Of a stretch of DNA of 41,477 nt, positions 355 to 24,128 are shown one piece after another (within the stretch, counting starts at the first letter, position 1; each line of letters begins with the position of its first letter). The stretch lies in assembly GCF_019599295.1 (NCBI RefSeq), contig NZ_JAIEWN010000015.1, positions 54,230 to 95,706 of the forward strand. The letters run 5' to 3'. Under the pieces are notes generated by a model. That model was not told where the DNA came from. It worked only from the letters and a program-made list of their open reading frames with translations, and ran no database searches. This DNA is from Oscillochloris sp. ZM17-4. Lineage in GTDB: Bacteria > Chloroflexota > Chloroflexia > Chloroflexales > Chloroflexaceae. Position numbers and translations under genes: made by a program.

Positions 355-448
355 CGAGAGCGCGTGGGGGTCGAACCCACCGGCGCGGCTCGTCACCGCG
401 CCCACCCGTTTTGAAGACGAGGGCAGCCACCGGGCCACATCCGCTCTC
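355..448 (-). tRNA. selC: Selenocysteine tRNA (anticodon UCA)
   Basis: The minus strand folds as a tRNA-Sec about 94 nt long. The acceptor arm GAGAGCGG pairs with GCGCTCTC, with one mismatch at the inner end. There is an extended D arm, an anticodon stem around the loop CTTCAAA (anticodon TCA, at 412-414), a long variable arm with a 7-bp GGCGCGG/CCGCGCC stem, and a T arm GTGGG-TTCGACC-CCCAC. The UCA anticodon, the long acceptor/T stack and the long extra arm are diagnostic of tRNA-Sec. The discriminator base is G, and CCA is not encoded. This implies a UGA-recoding system (SelA, SelB, SelD) elsewhere in the genome; none of those genes is in the window. Confidence 0.9.
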
Positions 449-17221: not shown

Positions 17222-17299
17222 GGGGTTGGGGGTGGCTTCGCCACCCCAAGGCAATGTGGTGGGGTGTTGGCGGCTTCGCCACCAGCACCCCACCACATT
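17222..17299. repeat. Two adjacent palindromes at the end of the lysine operon
   Basis: A short hairpin around GGGGTGGCTTCGCCACCCC is followed by a longer one (17253-17299) with arms AATGTGGTGGGGTG and its complement around an inner TGGCG/CGCCA stem. The lysY stop (17298-17300) touches the outer edge of the second palindrome. No T tract is present, so an intrinsic terminator is not certain. Confidence 0.65.
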
Positions 17300-18329
17300 A
17301 CACCGGGTGCAGGCCGGGGAAGTCGAGCCCCATCGCCTCGTCGTAGCCGAGCATGAGGTTCATGCACTGCACGGCGCTGCCGGCGGCGCCCTTCATCAGG
17401 TTGTCGATCGCGCAGATGCTGACGACCCGCCCGCTCTCGGCGTCGAGGGCGAAGCCGATGTCAGCGAAGTTGCTGCCGGCCAGGATCTTCGGCTCGGGGT
17501 AGCGGTAGATCCCCTGGCGCTCCTTGACGACCCGCACGAAGGGCTGCTCCTTGGCGAAGGCCCGGTAGGCCTGCCAGAGATCCTTCTCGGCCAGGGGGCG
17601 CGCGGCGAAGGCGTGGGCGGTGGCCAGCGCGCCGCGCACCAGCTCGACCGAGGTGATCGAGAGGTGCGTGTTGCTCAGGCCCGTCACCTGCTGGATCTCG
17701 GCGCCGTGGCGGTGGCCCACCGGGGCGAAGGAGCGCACCGCGCCGGCCCGCTCGGGGTGGTGGCTGCTCTCGCTGCCGCTCGCCCCGCCCTCCGACGAGC
17801 CGACCTTGACCTCAATGATCACCGGCCTGGCCGCATCGATCAGGCCGGCGCGCACCAGCGGCAGCAGCGCCAGGTTGCTCGCCGTCGCATTACACCCCAC
17901 CCCGCTGGCGTAGCGCGCCCCGCGCAGCCGCTCGCGGCTCACCTCGGGCAGCCCGTAGATGAAGCGCCCCAGCCAGTCGGGGGCCGGGTGCTCCTCGCCG
18001 TACCAGCGCCGGTATGCCGCCGGGTCGGCCAGGCGGAAGTCGGCGCTACAGTCGATGATCCGCTCGGCTAGGCCGGCGTAGCGATCAATCGCCCGCGCCG
18101 CCTCGCCGTGCGGCAGCGCCAGGAACAGCAGGTCGCAGGGCTCCAGCTTGTCGGGGTGGATGAACTGGATCGCCGTGCGCCCGCGCAGGTTCGGGTGGAC
18201 CTGGTAGAGGTAGCGCCCGGCGTTGCGCCCGCTGGTGGCCTGGGCCAGCTCCACCTCGGGGTGCCAGAGCAGCAGCCGCAGCAGCTCGCCGCCCACGTAG
18301 CCCGAGGCGCCGACAATTGATATTTTCAT
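17298..18329 (-). CDS. lysY: LysW-aminoadipyl-phosphate reductase (ArgC-like)
   Basis: An NADPH-dependent reductase of the ArgC/LysY family, expected to convert LysW-alpha-aminoadipyl phosphate to the semialdehyde in carrier-protein lysine synthesis. It has 343 residues. The Rossmann start IVGASGYVGGELLRLL is at 4-19, the catalytic cysteine is in YASGVGCNATASNL near residue 148, and HRHGAEIQQ near 218 contributes the active-site histidine. The gene is assigned to lysine rather than arginine synthesis because it lies downstream of lysW and lysX. The enzyme could serve both pathways. A palindrome and an 18-bp tandem repeat separate it from lysX. Confidence 0.88.
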   Translation of the reverse strand: MKISIVGASGYVGGELLRLLLWHPEVELAQATSGRNAGRYLYQVHPNLRGRTAIQFIHPDKLEPCDLLFLALPHGEAARAIDRYAGLAERIIDCSADFRLADPAAYRRWYGEEHPAPDWLGRFIYGLPEVSRERLRGARYASGVGCNATASNLALLPLVRAGLIDAARPVIIEVKVGSSEGGASGSESSHHPERAGAVRSFAPVGHRHGAEIQQVTGLSNTHLSITSVELVRGALATAHAFAARPLAEKDLWQAYRAFAKEQPFVRVVKERQGIYRYPEPKILAGSNFADIGFALDAESGRVVSICAIDNLMKGAAGSAVQCMNLMLGYDEAMGLDFPGLHPV

Positions 18330-18530: not shown

Positions 18531-19376
18531 CTAGCCTCCCCTCGCGATGCTCAGCGTATAGTCGATGATCCGGGCCGGGATGTTCACGCCGGTGGTGTCG
18601 ATGCTGTTGCGGAACTCCATGGTGTAGTTGACCTCGTTGACCAGCAGGCGGCCGTCGTCGGTCTCCAGCAGGTCGATCGCCACCACCCCGCCGCCGACAG
18701 CGTTGGCCGCGCGGATGCTCAGGTCCTCCAGCTCGGGGGTGAGCGGGCAGTTCGAGGCGACCCCGCCGCGGGCGGTGTTGGTGATCCAGTGCTCGCTGGC
18801 CCGGTAGATCGCGCCGATGCACTCGTCGCCCACCACAAACGAGCGGATGTCGCGGCCGGGCTTGCGGATGTACTCCTGGATGTAGAAGATCGCGTGCTGG
18901 TAGCTGCCCAGCACATCGCGGTGCTCCAGGATGGCCTCGGCGGCGTCGCGGTCGTTGATCTTCGAGACCATGCGGCCCCAGGAGCCGACCACCGGCTTGA
19001 GCACCACCGGGTAGCCCAGCTGCTCCATGGCCGCCAGGGCGCTCTCGGGGGTGAAGGCCAGCAGGTTCTTCGGCGTGGGCACCCCGGCGTGGACGAGGGC
19101 CTGGGTGGTCAGGAACTTATCGCCGCAGACGTTGGCCACATGGTAGGTGTTGACGGTGGGCACCCCGGCGTCGTTCAGGATCTTGAGCATGTACAGGGCG
19201 CGGCTGTGCTGGATGCAGCGCTCCAGCACCACGTCGTAGGGGTACTCGCGGCGCTGCAGGTCGAAGATCGTCTCGCGGTCATCGATCTTGACATAGTCGA
19301 TGCCGCGGCGCTCCAGCTCGGTGAAGATCAGCTTCTCCTCGGCGCGGACGCGCGAGGCGAGGACGGCGATACGCAT
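18531..19376 (-). CDS. lysX: LysW-alpha-aminoadipate ligase
   Basis: A 281-residue ATP-grasp ligase that joins alpha-aminoadipate to the C-terminal glutamate of LysW. It begins [17 protein letters not shown], has [20 protein letters not shown] in the ATP-grasp core near residues 117-136, and [15 protein letters not shown] near the end, where the N-E-V-N segment is the metal site of the LysX/RimK family. The ribosome-binding site GGAG lies within the last codons of lysW and the start is one base after the lysW stop, so the carrier and its ligase are translationally coupled. It is assigned as LysX rather than ArgX from the operon context. Confidence 0.92.
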
Positions 19377-19377
19377 A

Positions 19378-19545
19378 TTATTCTCCCCAGTCCTCTTCGA
19401 CCTCGGGGGCCAGGGCCAGTGTCGGCGGAGCGAGGCTCACCACCTCAAGCTCGGCCCCGCAGTCGGGGCAGGCGATGATCTCGCTCTCCATCGTTCCGTC
19501 GGGCAGGGCCACGTCGGCGGCGCACTCAGGGCATGCTGCGGTCAT
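19378..19545 (-). CDS. lysW: Amino-group carrier protein LysW
   Basis: A 55-residue acidic protein with a zinc-binding pair, CPEC near the N-terminus and CPDC near residue 27, and the diagnostic C-terminal EDWGE whose last glutamate carries the growing lysine backbone. It shields the amino group of aminoadipate so the intermediate cannot cyclise. The start at 19545 is supported by AAGGAG eight bases upstream; upstream in-frame ATGs lead into a palindrome. It sits directly before lysX. Confidence 0.95.
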
Positions 19546-19583
19546 CGGGGTGTCTCCTTGTATCATCGGTATTTTGGCCATCC

Positions 19584-19642
19584 GTAGGGCCGAAGCATGT
19601 TGCTCTGGCGCTTCGCGCCAGAGCAACATGCTTCGGCCCTAC
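19584..19642. repeat. 59-nt perfect palindrome (GTAGGGCCGAAGCAT family)
   Basis: Two 27-bp arms surround a 5-nt loop. The outer 15 bases, GTAGGGCCGAAGCAT, are identical to those of the 59-nt palindrome at 21279-21337, while the inner parts differ. The TAG stop of the upstream dehydrogenase gene (19639-19641) is formed by the element's edge. Confidence 0.93.
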
Positions 19643-20685
19643 AGCCGTTCGATCACCGCACGCGCGACCTCGGCGGTGGTGGATGCGCCGCCCAGGTCGG
19701 GCGTGCGCGGGCCGTCGGACATGACGGCGGCGGCGGCGGCGCGCACGCGGGCGGCCGCCTCGGCGCGGCGGCGCCACTCCAGCAGCATGGCCGCGCACTC
19801 GATGGCGGCCAGCGGGTTGGCGATGCCCTGGCCGGCGATGTCGGGCGCGGCCCCGTGGACCGGCTCGAACAGGGCGCGGCCCTCGCCCAGGTTGGCGCTG
19901 GAGGCCAGCCCCAGCCCGCCGCCGTGGATGCAGGCCACGTCCGAGAGGATGTCGCCGAACAGGTTGGTGGTGACGATCACGTCGAAGCGCCCCGGCGTCT
20001 GGGCGACCCGCATCGCCGCCACGTCCACCAGCATCTCCTCGTGGGCGATGTCGGGGTGCTGCGCGGCCACCTCCAGGGCCACGGTGCGGAAGAGCCCGTC
20101 GCTCACCCGCAGCACGTTCGCCTTGTGGACGATCGTGACCTTGGGGTGCGCCTTGCCGGCGGCGGCCCGGCTACGGGCCAGGTCGAAGGCGGCGCGCACG
20201 ATCCGCGCGCTGGCCCGCCGGGTGATCAGCCGCTCGGCGATCGCCGTGTCGCCGCCGTCCTCCAGCCGCTCGCGCCCGGCGTACAGGCCCTCGGTGTTCT
20301 CGCGCACCACCACGAGATTGCAGATTGCAGATTGCAGATTGTAGATTGGCGCCTCAATCTGCAATCTGCAATCTGCAATCTGCAATCCGACCACCGGGCG
20401 GATGTTGGCGTACAGATCCAGCTCGCGGCGCAGGGACACGATCGGGCTGCGGTAGCCGGGCACGCTGTGGCTGGGCGAGGCCACCGCCCCGAAGAGCACC
20501 GCGTCGGCCGCCCGCGCCGCCGCCAGGGTCGCCGCCGGCAGCGCCTCGCCGTGGCGCTGGAAGGCCGCCCAGCCCGCCTCGGCCTCGGCCAGCTCCACAT
20601 CGGGGGCGACGGCGCGCAGCACATCCACCGCCGCCCCCAGCACCTCCGGGCCAATCCCGTCGCCGGGAATCACACATACTCGCAT
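19639..20685 (-). CDS. hicd: Homoisocitrate dehydrogenase (LeuB/Icd family) with a repeat-encoded insertion
   Basis: A 348-residue NAD-dependent beta-decarboxylating dehydrogenase, expected to convert homoisocitrate to 2-oxoadipate. Motifs are VIPGDGIGPEV at the N-terminus, LYANIRP near 91, VVVRENTEGLYAG near 127, VTIVHKANVLRVSDGLF in the middle, and FEPVHGAAPDIAGQGIANP near residue 275. Between LYANIRP and VVVRENTEG, residues about 99-123 are encoded by a palindrome of CAGATTG heptamers, making this loop roughly 12 residues longer than in Thermus-type relatives. The frame stays open. 3-isopropylmalate dehydrogenase is possible from sequence alone; the operon favours the lysine role. Confidence 0.87.
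   Translation of the reverse strand: MRVCVIPGDGIGPEVLGAAVDVLRAVAPDVELAEAEAGWAAFQRHGEALPAATLAAARAADAVLFGAVASPSHSVPGYRSPIVSLRRELDLYANIRPVVGLQIADCRLQIEAPIYNLQSAICNLVVVRENTEGLYAGRERLEDGGDTAIAERLITRRASARIVRAAFDLARSRAAAGKAHPKVTIVHKANVLRVSDGLFRTVALEVAAQHPDIAHEEMLVDVAAMRVAQTPGRFDVIVTTNLFGDILSDVACIHGGGLGLASSANLGEGRALFEPVHGAAPDIAGQGIANPLAAIECAAMLLEWRRRAEAAARVRAAAAAVMSDGPRTPDLGGASTTAEVARAVIERL
20316..20387. repeat. 72-nt heptamer palindrome inside the homoisocitrate dehydrogenase gene
   Basis: Two 33-nt arms of tandem GCAGATT units, with one mismatch between them, surround the 6-nt centre GCGCCT. The length of 72 nt is a multiple of three, so the reading frame of the host gene is kept. The same heptamer recurs at 25373-25461. 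Confidence 0.92.
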
Positions 20686-20719: not shown

Positions 20720-20756
20720 GTAAGGGCGCAGCAGCGCGGCGCTGCTGCGCCTCTAC
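20720..20756. repeat. 37-nt palindrome between lysU and hicd
   Basis: Arms of about 11 bp (GGCGCAGCAGC) are flanked by GTAA on one side and CTAC on the other. The lysU TAG stop (20753-20755) is made by the element's edge. The core is shared with the palindrome at 18373-18434. Confidence 0.8.
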
Positions 20757-21247
20757 TCGCCCGGGAACCGCCCGTGCTGGCGGTAGAAGGGCACAATCCC
20801 GCCGGCGGCCCAGACCTCGCGGAGGAAGGCGGGCGGGGGGGGCAGCGCGATCCTGCTGCCGTCGTCGGTGATGATCAGGCCCTGCTCCAGGTTCATCTCC
20901 ACCTCCTGTCCGTCGCGCAGCTGCGCGGTCAGGTCGGCGGTGAAGCAGGGGATGCCCAGGTTGAGCGCGTTGCGGAAGAAGATGCGGGCGAAGAGCGGGG
21001 CGATGATCGCGCCCACGCCGACCATCCGCAGGGCCAGCGGCGCGTACTCGCGCGAGCTGCCGCAGCCGAAGTTGTTCCCGGCCACGATGATGTCGCCCGA
21101 CCGCACCGTGCCGGCGAAATCCGGCCGGTGCTCGACGAACGGGTACTTGCGCAGGTCGTCCTCATTCTTCAGCATGATCGGCGCGAAGCGCCCGGGGACA
21201 ATCTGGTCGGTGTTGATATCCTGGCCGAAGATCCATACGCGGGACAT
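20753..21247 (-). CDS. lysU: Homoaconitase small subunit
   Basis: A 164-residue swivel domain of the aconitase superfamily that partners the large subunit in converting homocitrate to homoisocitrate. It begins with FGQDINTDQIVPGRF and contains the signature NNFGCGSSREYAPLAL near residue 60, followed by FARIFFRNALNLGIPC. The start has GGAGG six bases upstream. LeuD would look similar; adjacency to homocitrate synthase and lysW supports the lysine pathway. Confidence 0.9.
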   Translation of the reverse strand: MSRVWIFGQDINTDQIVPGRFAPIMLKNEDDLRKYPFVEHRPDFAGTVRSGDIIVAGNNFGCGSSREYAPLALRMVGVGAIIAPLFARIFFRNALNLGIPCFTADLTAQLRDGQEVEMNLEQGLIITDDGSRIALPPPPAFLREVWAAGGIVPFYRQHGRFPGE

Positions 21248-21278: not shown

Positions 21279-21337
21279 GTAGGGCCGAAGCATTCGCGGT
21301 TGTCGCGTAGCGACAACCGCGAATGCTTCGGCCCTAC
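21279..21337. repeat. 59-nt perfect palindrome (GTAGGGCCGAAGCAT family)
   Basis: Two 28-bp arms around the loop GTA. Its outer 15 bases are the same as those of the element at 19584-19642. The TAG stop of lysT (21334-21336) is supplied by its edge. Confidence 0.93.
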
Positions 21338-22605
21338 AACACGTCGGCCGGGTGCGTGATATACCCCGTGATCGCGGTGGCGGCGGCGACCTCGGCGGAG
21401 GCCAGGTAGATGTTGGCCTCGGGGCTGCCCATGCGCCCGCGGAAGTTGCGGTTCCCGGTGAACAGGCAGGTCTCGCCGGGGCCGAGCACGCCCATGTGGC
21501 GGCCGATGCAGGCCCCGCAGCCGGGGGTGCCCAGGGCCGCGCCGGCGGCGATCAGGGTGGCCAGGGTGCCGTCCTCGGTGGCCCGCAGCAGGGCGTCGCG
21601 GCTGGCCGGCACCACCATCATGCGCACGCCGGGGGCCACCCGCCGGCCCTTCAGGATGCGCGCGGCGGCGGCCATGTCCTCGTAGTGGCCGTTGGTGCAG
21701 GTGCCCAGGTAGACCACGTCCACCGGCACACGCCCCAGGGCGCTCAGGTCGGCCACGTTGTCCACGTAGCTCGGCGCGCTCACCTGCGGCTCCAGGGTGT
21801 CCAGGTCCACCTCGACGATGCGGCTGTAGGTTGCGCCCTCCTGGACGACAGGCGTCCAGGAGGCAGGCGCGGGAGGCAGGCCGAACCCTGCCGCCGGCCT
21901 CCCGCCGCCTGCATCCTGAAAGACTGGCGGCACGATCCCGGCCTTCGCGCCGACCTCGATCGAGAGGGTGGCCAGGGTCATGCGCTCCATCACCGTGAGG
22001 AACTCGACGCCGTGCCACTCGACGGCGGCGTAGGTGGCCCCGTCGGCGCGCAGCTCGCGGGCGGCGCGCAGGGCCAGGTCCTTCGCGCTCACGCCGGGGC
22101 GGAATCGCCCCGTCGCCCGCACCAGCACCGTCTCGGGGACGCGGAACCAGGTGCGCCCGGTGGCGGCGGCCAGGGCGATGTCAGTCGAGCCCATGCCGCT
22201 GCCGAAGGCGCCCACCGCGCCGTAGGCGGTGGAGTGGCTGTCGCTGCCGACGATGACCATGCCGGGCTGGGCCACGCCCTCCTCGACCAGCACCGGGTGC
22301 GAGATGCCCCGGCCCACGTCGTAGAAGTGGGTGATCCCCTGGCGCTGCACCCAGCGCCGCACATCGTTCTGCTTCTCGGCCGTCTGCACCGTGGCCGCCG
22401 GGGCCACGTGGTCGATCACCACCGCCACGCGCTCAGGGTCCCAGACCCGCTCGGCGCCCAGCTCCTGCTCCATGATCCGGATAATGCTCGGCGAGAGGCT
22501 GTCGTGCATCATCACCAGGTCCACCGCCACCGTCGCCACCTCGCCGGCCCGCACCGTCTTGCCGGCCGCCCGCGAGAGGATCTGCTCGCTCAATGTCTGC
22601 GCCAT
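21334..22605 (-). CDS. lysT: Homoaconitase large subunit
   Basis: A 423-residue [4Fe-4S] hydro-lyase of the aconitase superfamily. Substrate and cluster motifs include VIDHVAPAATVQTAEKQ near 61, VGSDSHSTAYGAVG near 118, YLGTCTNGHYEDM near residue 288 (first cluster cysteine) and GTPGCGACIGRHMGVL near 345 (the other two cysteines). The ATG at 22605 is chosen because GGAG lies eight bases upstream; an in-frame ATG at 22632 has none. Between GIVPP and RIVEVDLDTLEPQV the protein has an unusual Gly/Pro/Ala-rich loop encoded by an imperfect palindrome (21857-21918). It forms a complex with lysU. Confidence 0.9.
   Translation of the reverse strand: MAQTLSEQILSRAAGKTVRAGEVATVAVDLVMMHDSLSPSIIRIMEQELGAERVWDPERVAVVIDHVAPAATVQTAEKQNDVRRWVQRQGITHFYDVGRGISHPVLVEEGVAQPGMVIVGSDSHSTAYGAVGAFGSGMGSTDIALAAATGRTWFRVPETVLVRATGRFRPGVSAKDLALRAARELRADGATYAAVEWHGVEFLTVMERMTLATLSIEVGAKAGIVPPVFQDAGGGRPAAGFGLPPAPASWTPVVQEGATYSRIVEVDLDTLEPQVSAPSYVDNVADLSALGRVPVDVVYLGTCTNGHYEDMAAAARILKGRRVAPGVRMMVVPASRDALLRATEDGTLATLIAAGAALGTPGCGACIGRHMGVLGPGETCLFTGNRNFRGRMGSPEANIYLASAEVAAATAITGYITHPADVL
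21857..21918. repeat. Imperfect palindrome inside lysT
   Basis: Arms of about 21 bases (CAGGAGGCAGGCG... and its complement, one mismatch and one indel) lie within the lysT coding region and keep the frame. They encode the Gly/Pro-rich loop after GIVPP. Confidence 0.65.
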
Positions 22606-22633
22606 AACCGTTGCTCCGCTTCCTAAGCTCATA

Positions 22634-22686: not shown

Positions 22687-23814
22687 CTACTCCGCATACT
22701 CATACAGCAGCTCATCCACCGTGTTGCCATCGATATCGTGCTCATCGCCGAGGGCCTTGATGCGGGCGGCGGCGACGCGGGCCTGGGCCTCGCTGAGGTA
22801 GATGCCCAGCTCGCGGGCGCGCTCGGCGATCGCGTGCCAGCCCACCAGGCGGTGGGCCACGGCCACGGTGCGCGTCCGCCCGAACAGGCTCGGGTCAAGC
22901 ACCTCGTAGCTGCGCGGGTCGGCCAGCACCGCCTTGGTGTGCATCCCCGCCTTGTGGGTGAAGGCCGTCGGGCTGGTGATGCAGCTGTTGAAGGGGATGG
23001 CGATGCCGACCATGTCGGCGACCATCTGGTCGATCTCGCCCAGCATGCCCAGGTTGTAGCGGGCCACCAGGGCCGGGTCGATCGCGGCCAGGCGGGCGAT
23101 CATGCCGCCCAGCGAGGCGATGCCGTTGCGCTCGCCGATGCCCAGGACGGTCACGTCGACATGGGTGGCCCCGCCCTCAAGGGCGCAGAAGGCGTTGGCG
23201 ATCGCGCAGCCGCTATCGTTATGGCCGTGGAACTCGATGTCGCAGCCGACGGCGGCGCGCACGGCGGCCAGCACATCGTAGACCTGGCGCGGCGCGGCGA
23301 TGCCGACGGTGTCGGCCAGGCCGATGCGCTGCACGCCGAGGCTGTCGATGGCCCGGTACACGCGGATGAGGTCGGGCAGGGGGGTGCGGAAGCTATCCTC
23401 GCAGGAGAAGCGCACCTCAAGGTCGTGGCGCTGGAGGTAGGCGATCACCTCGACGGCCCGCTCGATGATCTCGTCGAGGGTGCGGCCGTGGCTCACCTGG
23501 CGCAGCTGCTCGGAGGTGGCGAAGAGCAGGTTGGCGCCCTGGGCGCCGGCCTCGACGGCCAGCCGGGCGTCGTCCATGTGGCAGCGGATGTGGGTCAGGA
23601 CGCGGGCGCGCAGCCCGCGGCGGGCGATGGCCTCAAGGTCGCGCGCGCTCTGCGGCGAGGCGGCCGGCGAGGTGAGCTCGATGTACTCGACCCCGAAGGC
23701 GTCGAGGGCGTCGGCGATCGACACGCGCTGCGCGCTGCTGAAGCGCGCGCCGGCGAACTGCTCGCCCTCGCGCAGGGTCGTCTCGACCAAGTGGAAGCGA
23801 TCAGGCAGCGACAT
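22687..23814 (-). CDS. lysS: Homocitrate synthase
   Basis: It condenses 2-oxoglutarate with acetyl-CoA, the first committed step of the alpha-aminoadipate lysine pathway. The 375-residue length matches Thermus-type homocitrate synthase. The signature [20 protein letters not shown] is near residue 9, [18 protein letters not shown] near 46, [20 protein letters not shown] near 73, [17 protein letters not shown] near residue 195 (HGHND carries metal-binding histidines) and [14 protein letters not shown] near 282. These favour homocitrate synthase over isopropylmalate or citramalate synthase. The start at 23814 has AGGAG ten bases upstream and overlaps a 38-codon upstream frame. It is the first enzyme gene after a lysine attenuator. 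Confidence 0.93.
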
Positions 23815-23917
23815 GGCGTGAAGGCTCCTGTCTCACTTGACACGCGCCGAACAGCTCGGGGCGGCAGTGGCGCGGCGTGTAGGCGACGGCTGCGGGCATC
23901 GGGTAGCGCTGTTTCAT
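23801..23917 (-). CDS. Small 38-codon frame overlapping the start of homocitrate synthase
   Basis: It starts ATG at 23917 with an excellent GGAGGG box five bases upstream and ends at TGA 23801-23803, thirteen bases inside the homocitrate synthase gene in another frame. It begins [18 protein letters not shown]. It sits just after the attenuator terminator. It may couple translation into lysS or set its basal level. I do not recognise the peptide, and it may not be functional. Confidence 0.4.
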
Positions 23918-23940
23918 AGAATCCCTCCGGGAGATACAAA

Positions 23941-23975
23941 AGGCCCGGCTCACCACTGTCTGGTGAGCCGGGCCT
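23941..23975 (-). terminator. Attenuator terminator of the lysine operon
   Basis: On the minus strand a perfect 15-bp stem (AGGCCCGGCTCACCA and complement) with loop GACAG is followed by TTTTGT. Its 5' arm plus loop (GCTCACCAGAC, 23968 down to 23958) can instead pair with GTCTGGTTAGC at 24011-24001, at the end of the leader peptide frame, in 10 of 11 positions. This is the terminator/antiterminator pair expected for transcription attenuation. Confidence 0.88.
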
Positions 23976-24001
23976 ACACTCGATCATTCGTGCAGGCAGC
24001 G

Positions 24002-24064
24002 CTAACCAGACCGGGGGGCCGGCTTCTTGGTGCGCTTATCCTGCTTCGAGAAGGTGGTAACCAT
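24002..24064 (-). CDS. Lysine-rich leader peptide of the lysine operon
   Basis: A 20-codon frame, MVTTFSKQDKRTKKPAPRSG, then TAG. It has four AAG lysine codons, two of them adjacent at positions 13-14. The last codons (TCT GGT TAG) form the antiterminator segment. A ribosome stalled at the Lys13-Lys14 codons for lack of charged tRNA-Lys would leave that segment free to pair with the terminator's 5' arm; a ribosome reaching the stop codon would cover it and let the terminator form. Leader-peptide attenuation has been reported for the Thermus thermophilus lysine cluster, so the design has precedent. The ribosome-binding site is weak. Nothing about the peptide itself suggests a separate function. 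Confidence 0.82.
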   Translation of the reverse strand: MVTTFSKQDKRTKKPAPRSG

Positions 24065-24099
24065 TGGTTAAAATACTCGCTCCGCTCGATGACGCGCGG

Positions 24100-24128
24100 A
24101 GTATAGCAGCAGGCTGAGAAGCTGTCAA
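24100..24128 (-). promoter_or_regulatory. Consensus promoter of the lysine operon
   Basis: On the minus strand a perfect TTGACA (24123-24128), a 17-bp spacer and TATACT (24100-24105). The predicted transcript starts near 24093, about 30 nt before the leader-peptide ATG. It begins two bases from the stop of the next gene upstream (24130). Confidence 0.88.

Follow-up and report, generated by a model that had tools for sequence, protein, structure and literature searches.

The minus strand of a 41,477-nucleotide stretch of the Oscillochloris sp. ZM17-4 genome (hereafter, the window) carries at 24128-23937 the architecture of a leader-peptide attenuator, placed upstream of a lysine operon. With a probability of roughly 0.9, we read this element from its sequence as a classical ribosome-mediated transcription attenuator of that operon. 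In relatives, altered leader codons seem to have put this switch to work for arginine, and perhaps for glutamine.

The promoter of the element (24100-24128) combines TTGACA (24128-24123) and TATACT (24105-24100) across a 17-nt spacer. The leader frame, MVTTFSKQDKRTKKPAPRSG followed by a stop (24002-24064), extends over 20 codons from an ATG at 24064 to a TAG at 24004-24002, with Lys codons at positions 7, 10, 13 and 14; by eye, no clear Shine-Dalgarno sequence precedes its ATG. Segment 1 (GCCGGCC, 24017-24023) lies over the K-P-A codons and is, in the minimum free energy (MFE) folds, the consensus partner of segment 2 (GTCTGGT, 24005-24011), which includes TCT GGT, the Ser-Gly codons preceding the stop. 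Alignment and pairing further define an auxiliary stem, here termed stem P, with its 5' half GCCTGCAC at 23990-23997 (GCTTG in most relatives) and its 3' half GTGTAGGC at 23972-23979, the latter overlapping the terminator base. Segment 3 (ACCAGAC, 23958-23964) occupies the 5' arm and loop of the terminator and is the antiterminator partner of segment 2, and the intrinsic terminator itself (23937-23975) is formed by arms 23975-23961 and 23955-23941, which make 15/15 pairs and are followed by TTTTG. The promoter, the 20-codon leader with four Lys codons including an adjacent pair, and the 15-bp terminator of a preliminary description of this DNA all hold at these coordinates, and it correctly read from the sequence that GTCTGGTTAGC makes 10/11 pairs with the 5' arm and loop of the terminator.

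Membership in a known Rfam family (lysine riboswitch, T-box or other) was considered and dropped, with no match at the gathering score. The only Rfam match in the window was tRNA-Sec, a selenocysteine tRNA gene at 356-448 (minus strand), with sub-threshold matches only at the element, while 16 related loci gave tRNAs and CRISPR repeats only. Chloroflexi-1 (RF01698; PMC2864571) was absent among the Rfam matches.

By its gene content, the operon downstream of the leader would encode the LysW-dependent aminoadipate route to lysine. Its first gene is the homocitrate synthase hcs/lysS (22687-23814, minus strand like all the genes that follow; TIGR02146 above cut-off). Behind it come the large (lysT, 21334-22632) and small (lysU, 20753-21247) subunits of homoaconitase and a homoisocitrate dehydrogenase-like gene (19639-20685); an amino-group carrier gene (19378-19629, start uncertain) whose frame ends in EEDWGE and which we take to be lysW from its EDWGE motif; lysX (18531-19376; TIGR02144); and argC/lysY (17298-18329; TIGR01850). 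The closest named hcs relatives are Oscillochloris, and the genome measures 6.7 Mb.

To place the element among its relatives, 80 hcs loci were fetched, of which the first 24 (L009-L032, hcs identity at least 72%) are Chloroflexota save one odd title, and mostly Chloroflexales. The alignment holds 24 of 25 loci, window included; L022, cut by a contig end, was left out, with segment 2 and the terminator still present in it. Each of the 24 Chloroflexales hcs loci that could be aligned, the window among them, has the promoter, the leader, both segments 2 and 3, and the hairpin. The promoter reads TTGAC[AG]-17-TATNNT in 24/24, its spacing of exactly 17 nt being kept throughout under a search pattern that allowed 15-19. 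Counting from the stop, Lys is kept at positions -14 (22/24), -11 (24/24), -8 (23/24) and -7 (23/24), with Glu replacing one Lys of the pair in L012. Segment 2 is GTCTGGT, GCCTGGT or GCTTGGT in every locus, and its complement, exact or nearly so, lies in the 5' arm and loop of every hairpin; L010 and L012 have a C.A mismatch within the arm, and the T-run is interrupted in L014-L018 (AATTGTTT or similar). The leader ATG of L014-L018 and L027 stands 9 nt past the -10 box, so that the leader mRNA is probably nearly leaderless there. In a sample of the phylum, every hcs-bearing genome of the window's family (21) matches R1, the RNA model of the 24 Lys elements, and the two sampled genomes of the family without hcs gave no match to it.

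Between terminator and hcs lies a second conserved small ORF (38 residues, 23801-23917, minus strand), which overlaps the hcs start by 14 nt. Its RPELFG frame is found there in 25/25 loci; the core TPRxxRPELFGxCQVR has the same place in L009-L032, L368 and L369, most of them overlapping the hcs start, and the differences by codon position (0.18, 0.06 and 0.43) are a strong coding signature. The overlap suggests that this ORF is perhaps translationally coupled to hcs. It matched no Pfam family, and it is not intact everywhere, since a TAA directly follows the ATG in L021 and one TAA occurs in G060. A search of the class placed 36 of 45 matches beside hcs or a Lys element by coordinates, spread over 29 genomes from the family of the window and seven from family f2; the remaining nine (E 0.0012-0.025), away from these sites, are probably chance matches. 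A different small frame (SKRL...) was seen by eye between terminator and hcs in three hcs loci of family f4 (L179, L187 and L188).

How often such a combination arises by chance was addressed with a detector that calls a stem, a T-run, an arm complementary to the stem near the stop codon, and at least four Lys among the last 18 residues. It scored 34/80 hcs upstream regions and 0/320 dinucleotide shuffles. Set to each of the other 19 amino acids, it scored 0-2 of the 80 regions, except for Ser (11). A first version, which kept the single best helix per terminator, had scored 26/80 and was replaced; neither version catches the elements with a bulged terminator that can be recognised by eye. The bare pattern of segments 1 and 2 (40 places, 38/150 genomes) was discarded because, among the matches listed, a backward-read control matched about as often.

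The phylum sample covered 400 genomes, with hcs-like genes in 107 and Thermus composti as a named control. Seventy loci went through a looser early version of the detector, of which 16 could not be oriented, leaving 54 tested; the other 37 hits stayed outside the detector run, 21 of them from the window's family and covered by the RNA models. Five of the 54 testable loci scored, in four genomes (G030, G017, G040 and G048) and all in the window's order. None of the remaining 49 scored, and no Lys leader was detected in this sample outside that order. Many of the sampled hcs-like hits may be other homologues. The failure of many distant loci to score would suit a reading in which the leader frame is incidental, or encodes a functional microprotein, and the hairpin simply acts as a terminator or attenuates constitutively. 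We regard this reading as scarcely credible, since a promoter-like site stands upstream of the leader at the same spacing in 24/24 loci, the codon content of the leader tracks the downstream gene (see below), and the whole combination is absent from the 320 shuffles.

The nearest hcs relatives by sequence, unlike the evenly drawn phylum sample, did give Lys leaders outside the order. Many loci titled Caldilineaceae, Caldilineae or Anaerolineae have Lys-rich leaders before hcs or lysW-hcs (partly judged by eye), with GTCTGG...CCAGAC or a covarying version of it, such as the GTCGGG paired with ATCCGAC in L084 and L085. A locus with a Fimbriimonadia title (L047), which we take to be Armatimonadota, has the candidate leader MKLTAKKLEAKKRLPLG, followed by a stop, with CTTGGGTGA:TCATCCAAG. 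In six loci with Holophagales, Vicinamibacteraceae or Acidobacteria titles (L041, L044, L046, L048, L050 and L060), one sees by eye a leader such as MTQSTITPSLVKPLHKRGAKPRLQDWVPIA before a stop, with three Lys codons, and a Caldilineae-like terminator; these loci reach only 18.6-21 bits (E 0.015-0.062) against R2, a model built from 34 Lys and 19 Arg sequences. Within the window's order, family f2, our guess for which is Herpetosiphon, has leaders containing KKRSAKKPGSESG. The comparison with relatives proposed in the preliminary description has in this way returned the same logic in other Chloroflexota and, weakly, in Acidobacteriota. Two attenuator-like elements stand in a row before hcs in L040 (2639-2904) and L075 (398-662), and L084 and L085 carry tandem attenuator-like elements by eye.

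We then considered the pairing. In the Chloroflexales set of Lys elements, 93% of the alignment cells of the antiterminator helix and 92% of those of the terminator are paired. The covariation score of the terminator was reached by 0/500 shuffles, and the number of antiterminator pairs changed on both sides by 28/500, a weak covariation explained by the near invariance of the helix. In the 53-sequence set of Lys and Arg elements, 92.5% of the antiterminator cells are paired, as are 84% of those of stem P, in which GCTTG pairs with the terminator base and joins the antiterminator. For these two helices jointly, 14 cells are changed on both sides, a value that none of 500 shuffles attained, while counted as pairs changed on both sides the set does no better than shuffled (200/500). 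In one Arg element (L295) all three segments are altered together, to CCAAAC, GTTTGGG and GCCCAAA. The attenuation reading of the preliminary description, which had proposed to look for the Lys codons and the alternative pairing upstream of hcs in relatives, is supported by the conservation of both.

The helix between segments 1 and 2 differs from the one first proposed. TAACCA, just before the leader ATG, had been suggested to pair with TGGTTA at the leader end, and we dropped this helix: TAACCA lies between the -10 box and the leader end in 3/24 loci only, and in L014-L018 and L027 there would be no room for it, because the leader ATG follows the predicted transcript start by about 3 nt. In its place we predict a segment 1 of sequence GCCGG[AC]C, spanning the K-P-[A/D] codons. 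Its register with segment 2 (-19 to -13 with -7 to -1) appears in 19/24 MFE folds, the window being among the five loci whose MFE fold pairs segment 2 with other upstream bases. In two alignments 80.7% and 88.8% of the cells of this helix are paired, with covariation not above that of shuffles.

Mechanistically, the ribosome would trail RNA polymerase along the leader. With plentiful Lys-tRNA, it would reach the stop codon beside segment 2 and cover this segment, upon which segments 3 and 4 would form the terminator and transcription would end before hcs. With scarce Lys-tRNA, it would stall on Lys codons 13-14, about 15 nt upstream of segment 2, covering segment 1 and freeing segment 2; segment 2 and stem P would then pair with the 5' half of the terminator, allowing readthrough into the lysine operon. 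Transcription start, translation, stalling, readthrough and the response to lysine are all things that we infer from the DNA.

Folding with parts of the leader masked, a check put forward in the preliminary description, gave the pattern that this scheme predicts. When the mask reaches as far as a ribosome standing at Lys 14 would extend, the RNA ending with segment 3 adopts the antiterminator (-30.7 kcal/mol); with the mask set as for a ribosome at the stop codon, it folds without the antiterminator (-4.8 kcal/mol); and in the unmasked transcript up to segment 3, segment 2 pairs upstream. In the complete transcript, the terminator wins under all three mask conditions, so the switch would have to be kinetic, taking place before the 3' arm is made. 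The edge of a stalled ribosome lies about 12-13 nt from the A site. In all 45 of the 80 loci where a Lys-rich frame has an exact TCTGG close to its stop, the last Lys codon begins 13-24 nt ahead of TCTGG, with a mode of 15, which would suffice to leave segment 2 free under the stalled ribosome. TCTGG itself starts 5-6 nt before the stop in 27 of these loci and 4-8 nt past the first base of the stop in the other 18.

The conservation of residues other than Lys (Gln at -13 and Gly at -1 in 24/24 leaders, Pro at -6 in 23/24) could also be taken as a sign of nascent-peptide arrest, in which the peptide KQxKRxKKPxxRSG would stall the ribosome in response to free lysine or another ligand and not to uncharged Lys-tRNA. 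We find this very unlikely. The PxxRSG ending can be explained without a role for the peptide, because its Pro and Ser-Gly codons hold the paired segments 1 and 2; the Caldilineae-type leaders (KKKSKKQKPD and a stop) lack Ser-Gly and have their stop upstream of GTCTGG; and the sensing residues turn to Arg in step with the downstream gene.

This last point emerged from searches beyond hcs, and it modifies the preliminary description: its lysine attenuator stands in that Lys codons precede lys genes, but the element is not peculiar to lysine, as an Arg version stands before arg genes. With an E limit of 0.01, R1 matched 64 of 150 class genomes, some of these matches without hcs behind them, and R2 matched 66/150 class genomes at E 0.05 and 35/400 phylum genomes at E 0.001. 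Against the terminator reverse strand alone, matches of R1 reach E 1.8e-5, so weak R1 matches need other support. Among family f3 genomes, what follows the Lys element is homoaconitase, lysW-lysX or a LysE-family gene. Elements before argininosuccinate synthase (argG) have the leaders RRLRRTQPDQTSG, RFRRRTQPDDPSG, RRFRRCQPARRSG and so on, each ended by a stop, and the genome of the window itself has an Arg element, VQQKQLRRQRRPQPAIGPG and a stop with a GTG start, before a histidine-phosphatase gene and argJ. A terminator scan of the argG regions gave nothing for the window's genus; there, the covariance model found an element before argG in G001 that the scan had missed, together with elements before argJ operons in G000, G002, G004 and G005, and a further one at a contig end in G003. 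Outside the class, L367 has an Arg-rich leader before argC-argB-argD (genes named by eye; R2 E 6.8e-4). The alignment of Arg candidates (A2) kept 19 of 20, L285 being dropped as doubtful. Two Arg copies lie about 1.8 kb apart in L331, with another ORF between them, and R2 matches L337 weakly (E 1.4e-4) upstream of a glutamyl-tRNA synthetase-like gene, the leader there showing no clear codon run.

To compare leader codons with the genes behind them, we took the 128 rows of A3 and A4 and removed repeats, which left 93 with a leader ORF; seven without one were dropped. Lys outnumbers Arg in 35 of 36 distinct elements before hcs, lysT or lysW, the remaining one being a tie, and Arg outnumbers Lys in 23/23 distinct elements before argG or argJ operons (Fisher p 1.7e-15, relatedness ignored). 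The 21 of the 93 rows without a recognised gene include true elements of the window's genus (their hcs lacking the D of the motif), four reverse-strand matches and one chance match (L180). The count leaves out the doubtful gltX row and does not cover the hcs loci of other classes.

A Gln version possibly exists before LysE-family exporters. Of the 12 elements before LysE-family genes, four are Lys-rich, seven Gln-rich and one mixed; L343 is likewise Gln-rich, as are L364-L366 outside the class. These genes were assigned to the family by a motif and by one tested protein, which scored far below the TIGR00949 cut-off. Inducing an exporter by starvation is paradoxical, and these Lys and Gln elements misfit a simple starvation logic. 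LysE/RhtB-like genes were noted behind Lys or Gln elements in L172, L177, L186, L339-L341, L343, L346, L352, L353, L355, L359, L362 and L364-L366.

A Pro codon at -6, the GCTTG motif, and TCTGGYTAG or a near variant of it are common to Lys and Arg elements. We built a tree of 84 elements with the sensing codons removed, leaving out leaders without a Ser-Gly-like final pair. All 24 Arg elements fall on one side of a branch (96/92), with 27 of the 81 inner branches open, the columns being few. The tree implies four changes over K/R/Q against a shuffled mean of 27.3, and its starred branches force at least two changes for Gln. We infer a common descent of the Lys and Arg elements. Their chassis, with Pro-x-x-x-Ser-Gly-stop codons that would double as segments 1 and 2, the GCTTG stem and the terminator, looks like one family.

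Independent origins, with the likeness due to convergence, would rival this family claim and leave the mechanism as it is. We consider them unlikely, while conceding that the elements are short, that a third of the inner branches (the 27 of 81 above) are open, and that the reverse-strand terminator matches of the Lys-only model make weaker Arg matches prove little. R1 does, on the other side, find Arg elements at E 4.0e-10 (G083:C94) and E 5.0e-7 (G099:C42) over all 119 positions, and the shared Pro codon, TCTGGYTAG and GCTTG also speak against convergence. Taken globally, our results point to a single chassis that was probably retargeted by codon replacement: Lys for hcs, homoaconitase, lysW-lysX and some LysE-family exporters; Arg for argG, argJ and argC operons; and Gln for LysE-family exporters, all sharing segments 1-3 and the geometry of the stop codon.

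Leader-peptide attenuation is best known from Proteobacteria, where trp, his and thr attenuators combine regulatory codons with mutually exclusive helices. The element described here differs from these types in that its chassis seems to serve several amino acids and in that the final codons contain segments 1 and 2. The lysine (hcs) cluster of Thermus thermophilus reportedly has a leader-peptide attenuator too, in which a short leader with Lys codons stands ahead of a terminator; that system shares with the window the pathway and the first gene, in a different phylum. We know of no Arg or Gln siblings of the Thermus lysine leader, and no paper on that leader appeared among the matches listed in the literature searched.

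Several attenuators outside this setting resemble the element in part. Attenuation upstream of lysQ in Lactococcus lactis (PMC4833913) is likewise lysine-related by its description, but it concerns a permease gene in another phylum. The trp attenuators of Actinobacteria also use regulatory codons and mutually exclusive helices, and for the arginine or lysine operons of that phylum no conserved upstream RNA structure is reported (PMC1262725). In bacilli, His leader peptides before hisS*/hisZ offer, as the window does, a leader peptide outside Proteobacteria and Actinobacteria, although on paralogous genes and for one amino acid only; the main text makes no mention of Chloroflexi, Chloroflexus, lysine or Thermus (PMC2965389). 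The speF leader of Salmonella, with its arginine codons, is by its description arginine-responsive like our Arg elements, and controls polyamine synthesis instead (PMC6386406).

Among the matches listed, judged by title and the start of the abstract and with subscription journals mostly outside the search, we recognised no Lys or Arg attenuators of Chloroflexota; within this literature, the conserved attenuator variant is apparently unreported. Leader-peptide attenuation would be widespread in one order of this phylum, with like elements in other classes. The mechanism itself was already known, and the new part is the chassis with its apparently swapped codons. The Lys/Arg pair makes attenuator evolution testable, both in the change of specificity and in the way in which RNA segments hidden in codons constrain the peptide. 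T-box riboswitches are another case of one RNA chassis retargeted by a specifier codon; they bind tRNA directly, whereas here the ribosome would read the translated leader. If this reading is true, the elements described here would be the leader-peptide counterpart of the T-box and a natural codon-swap experiment.
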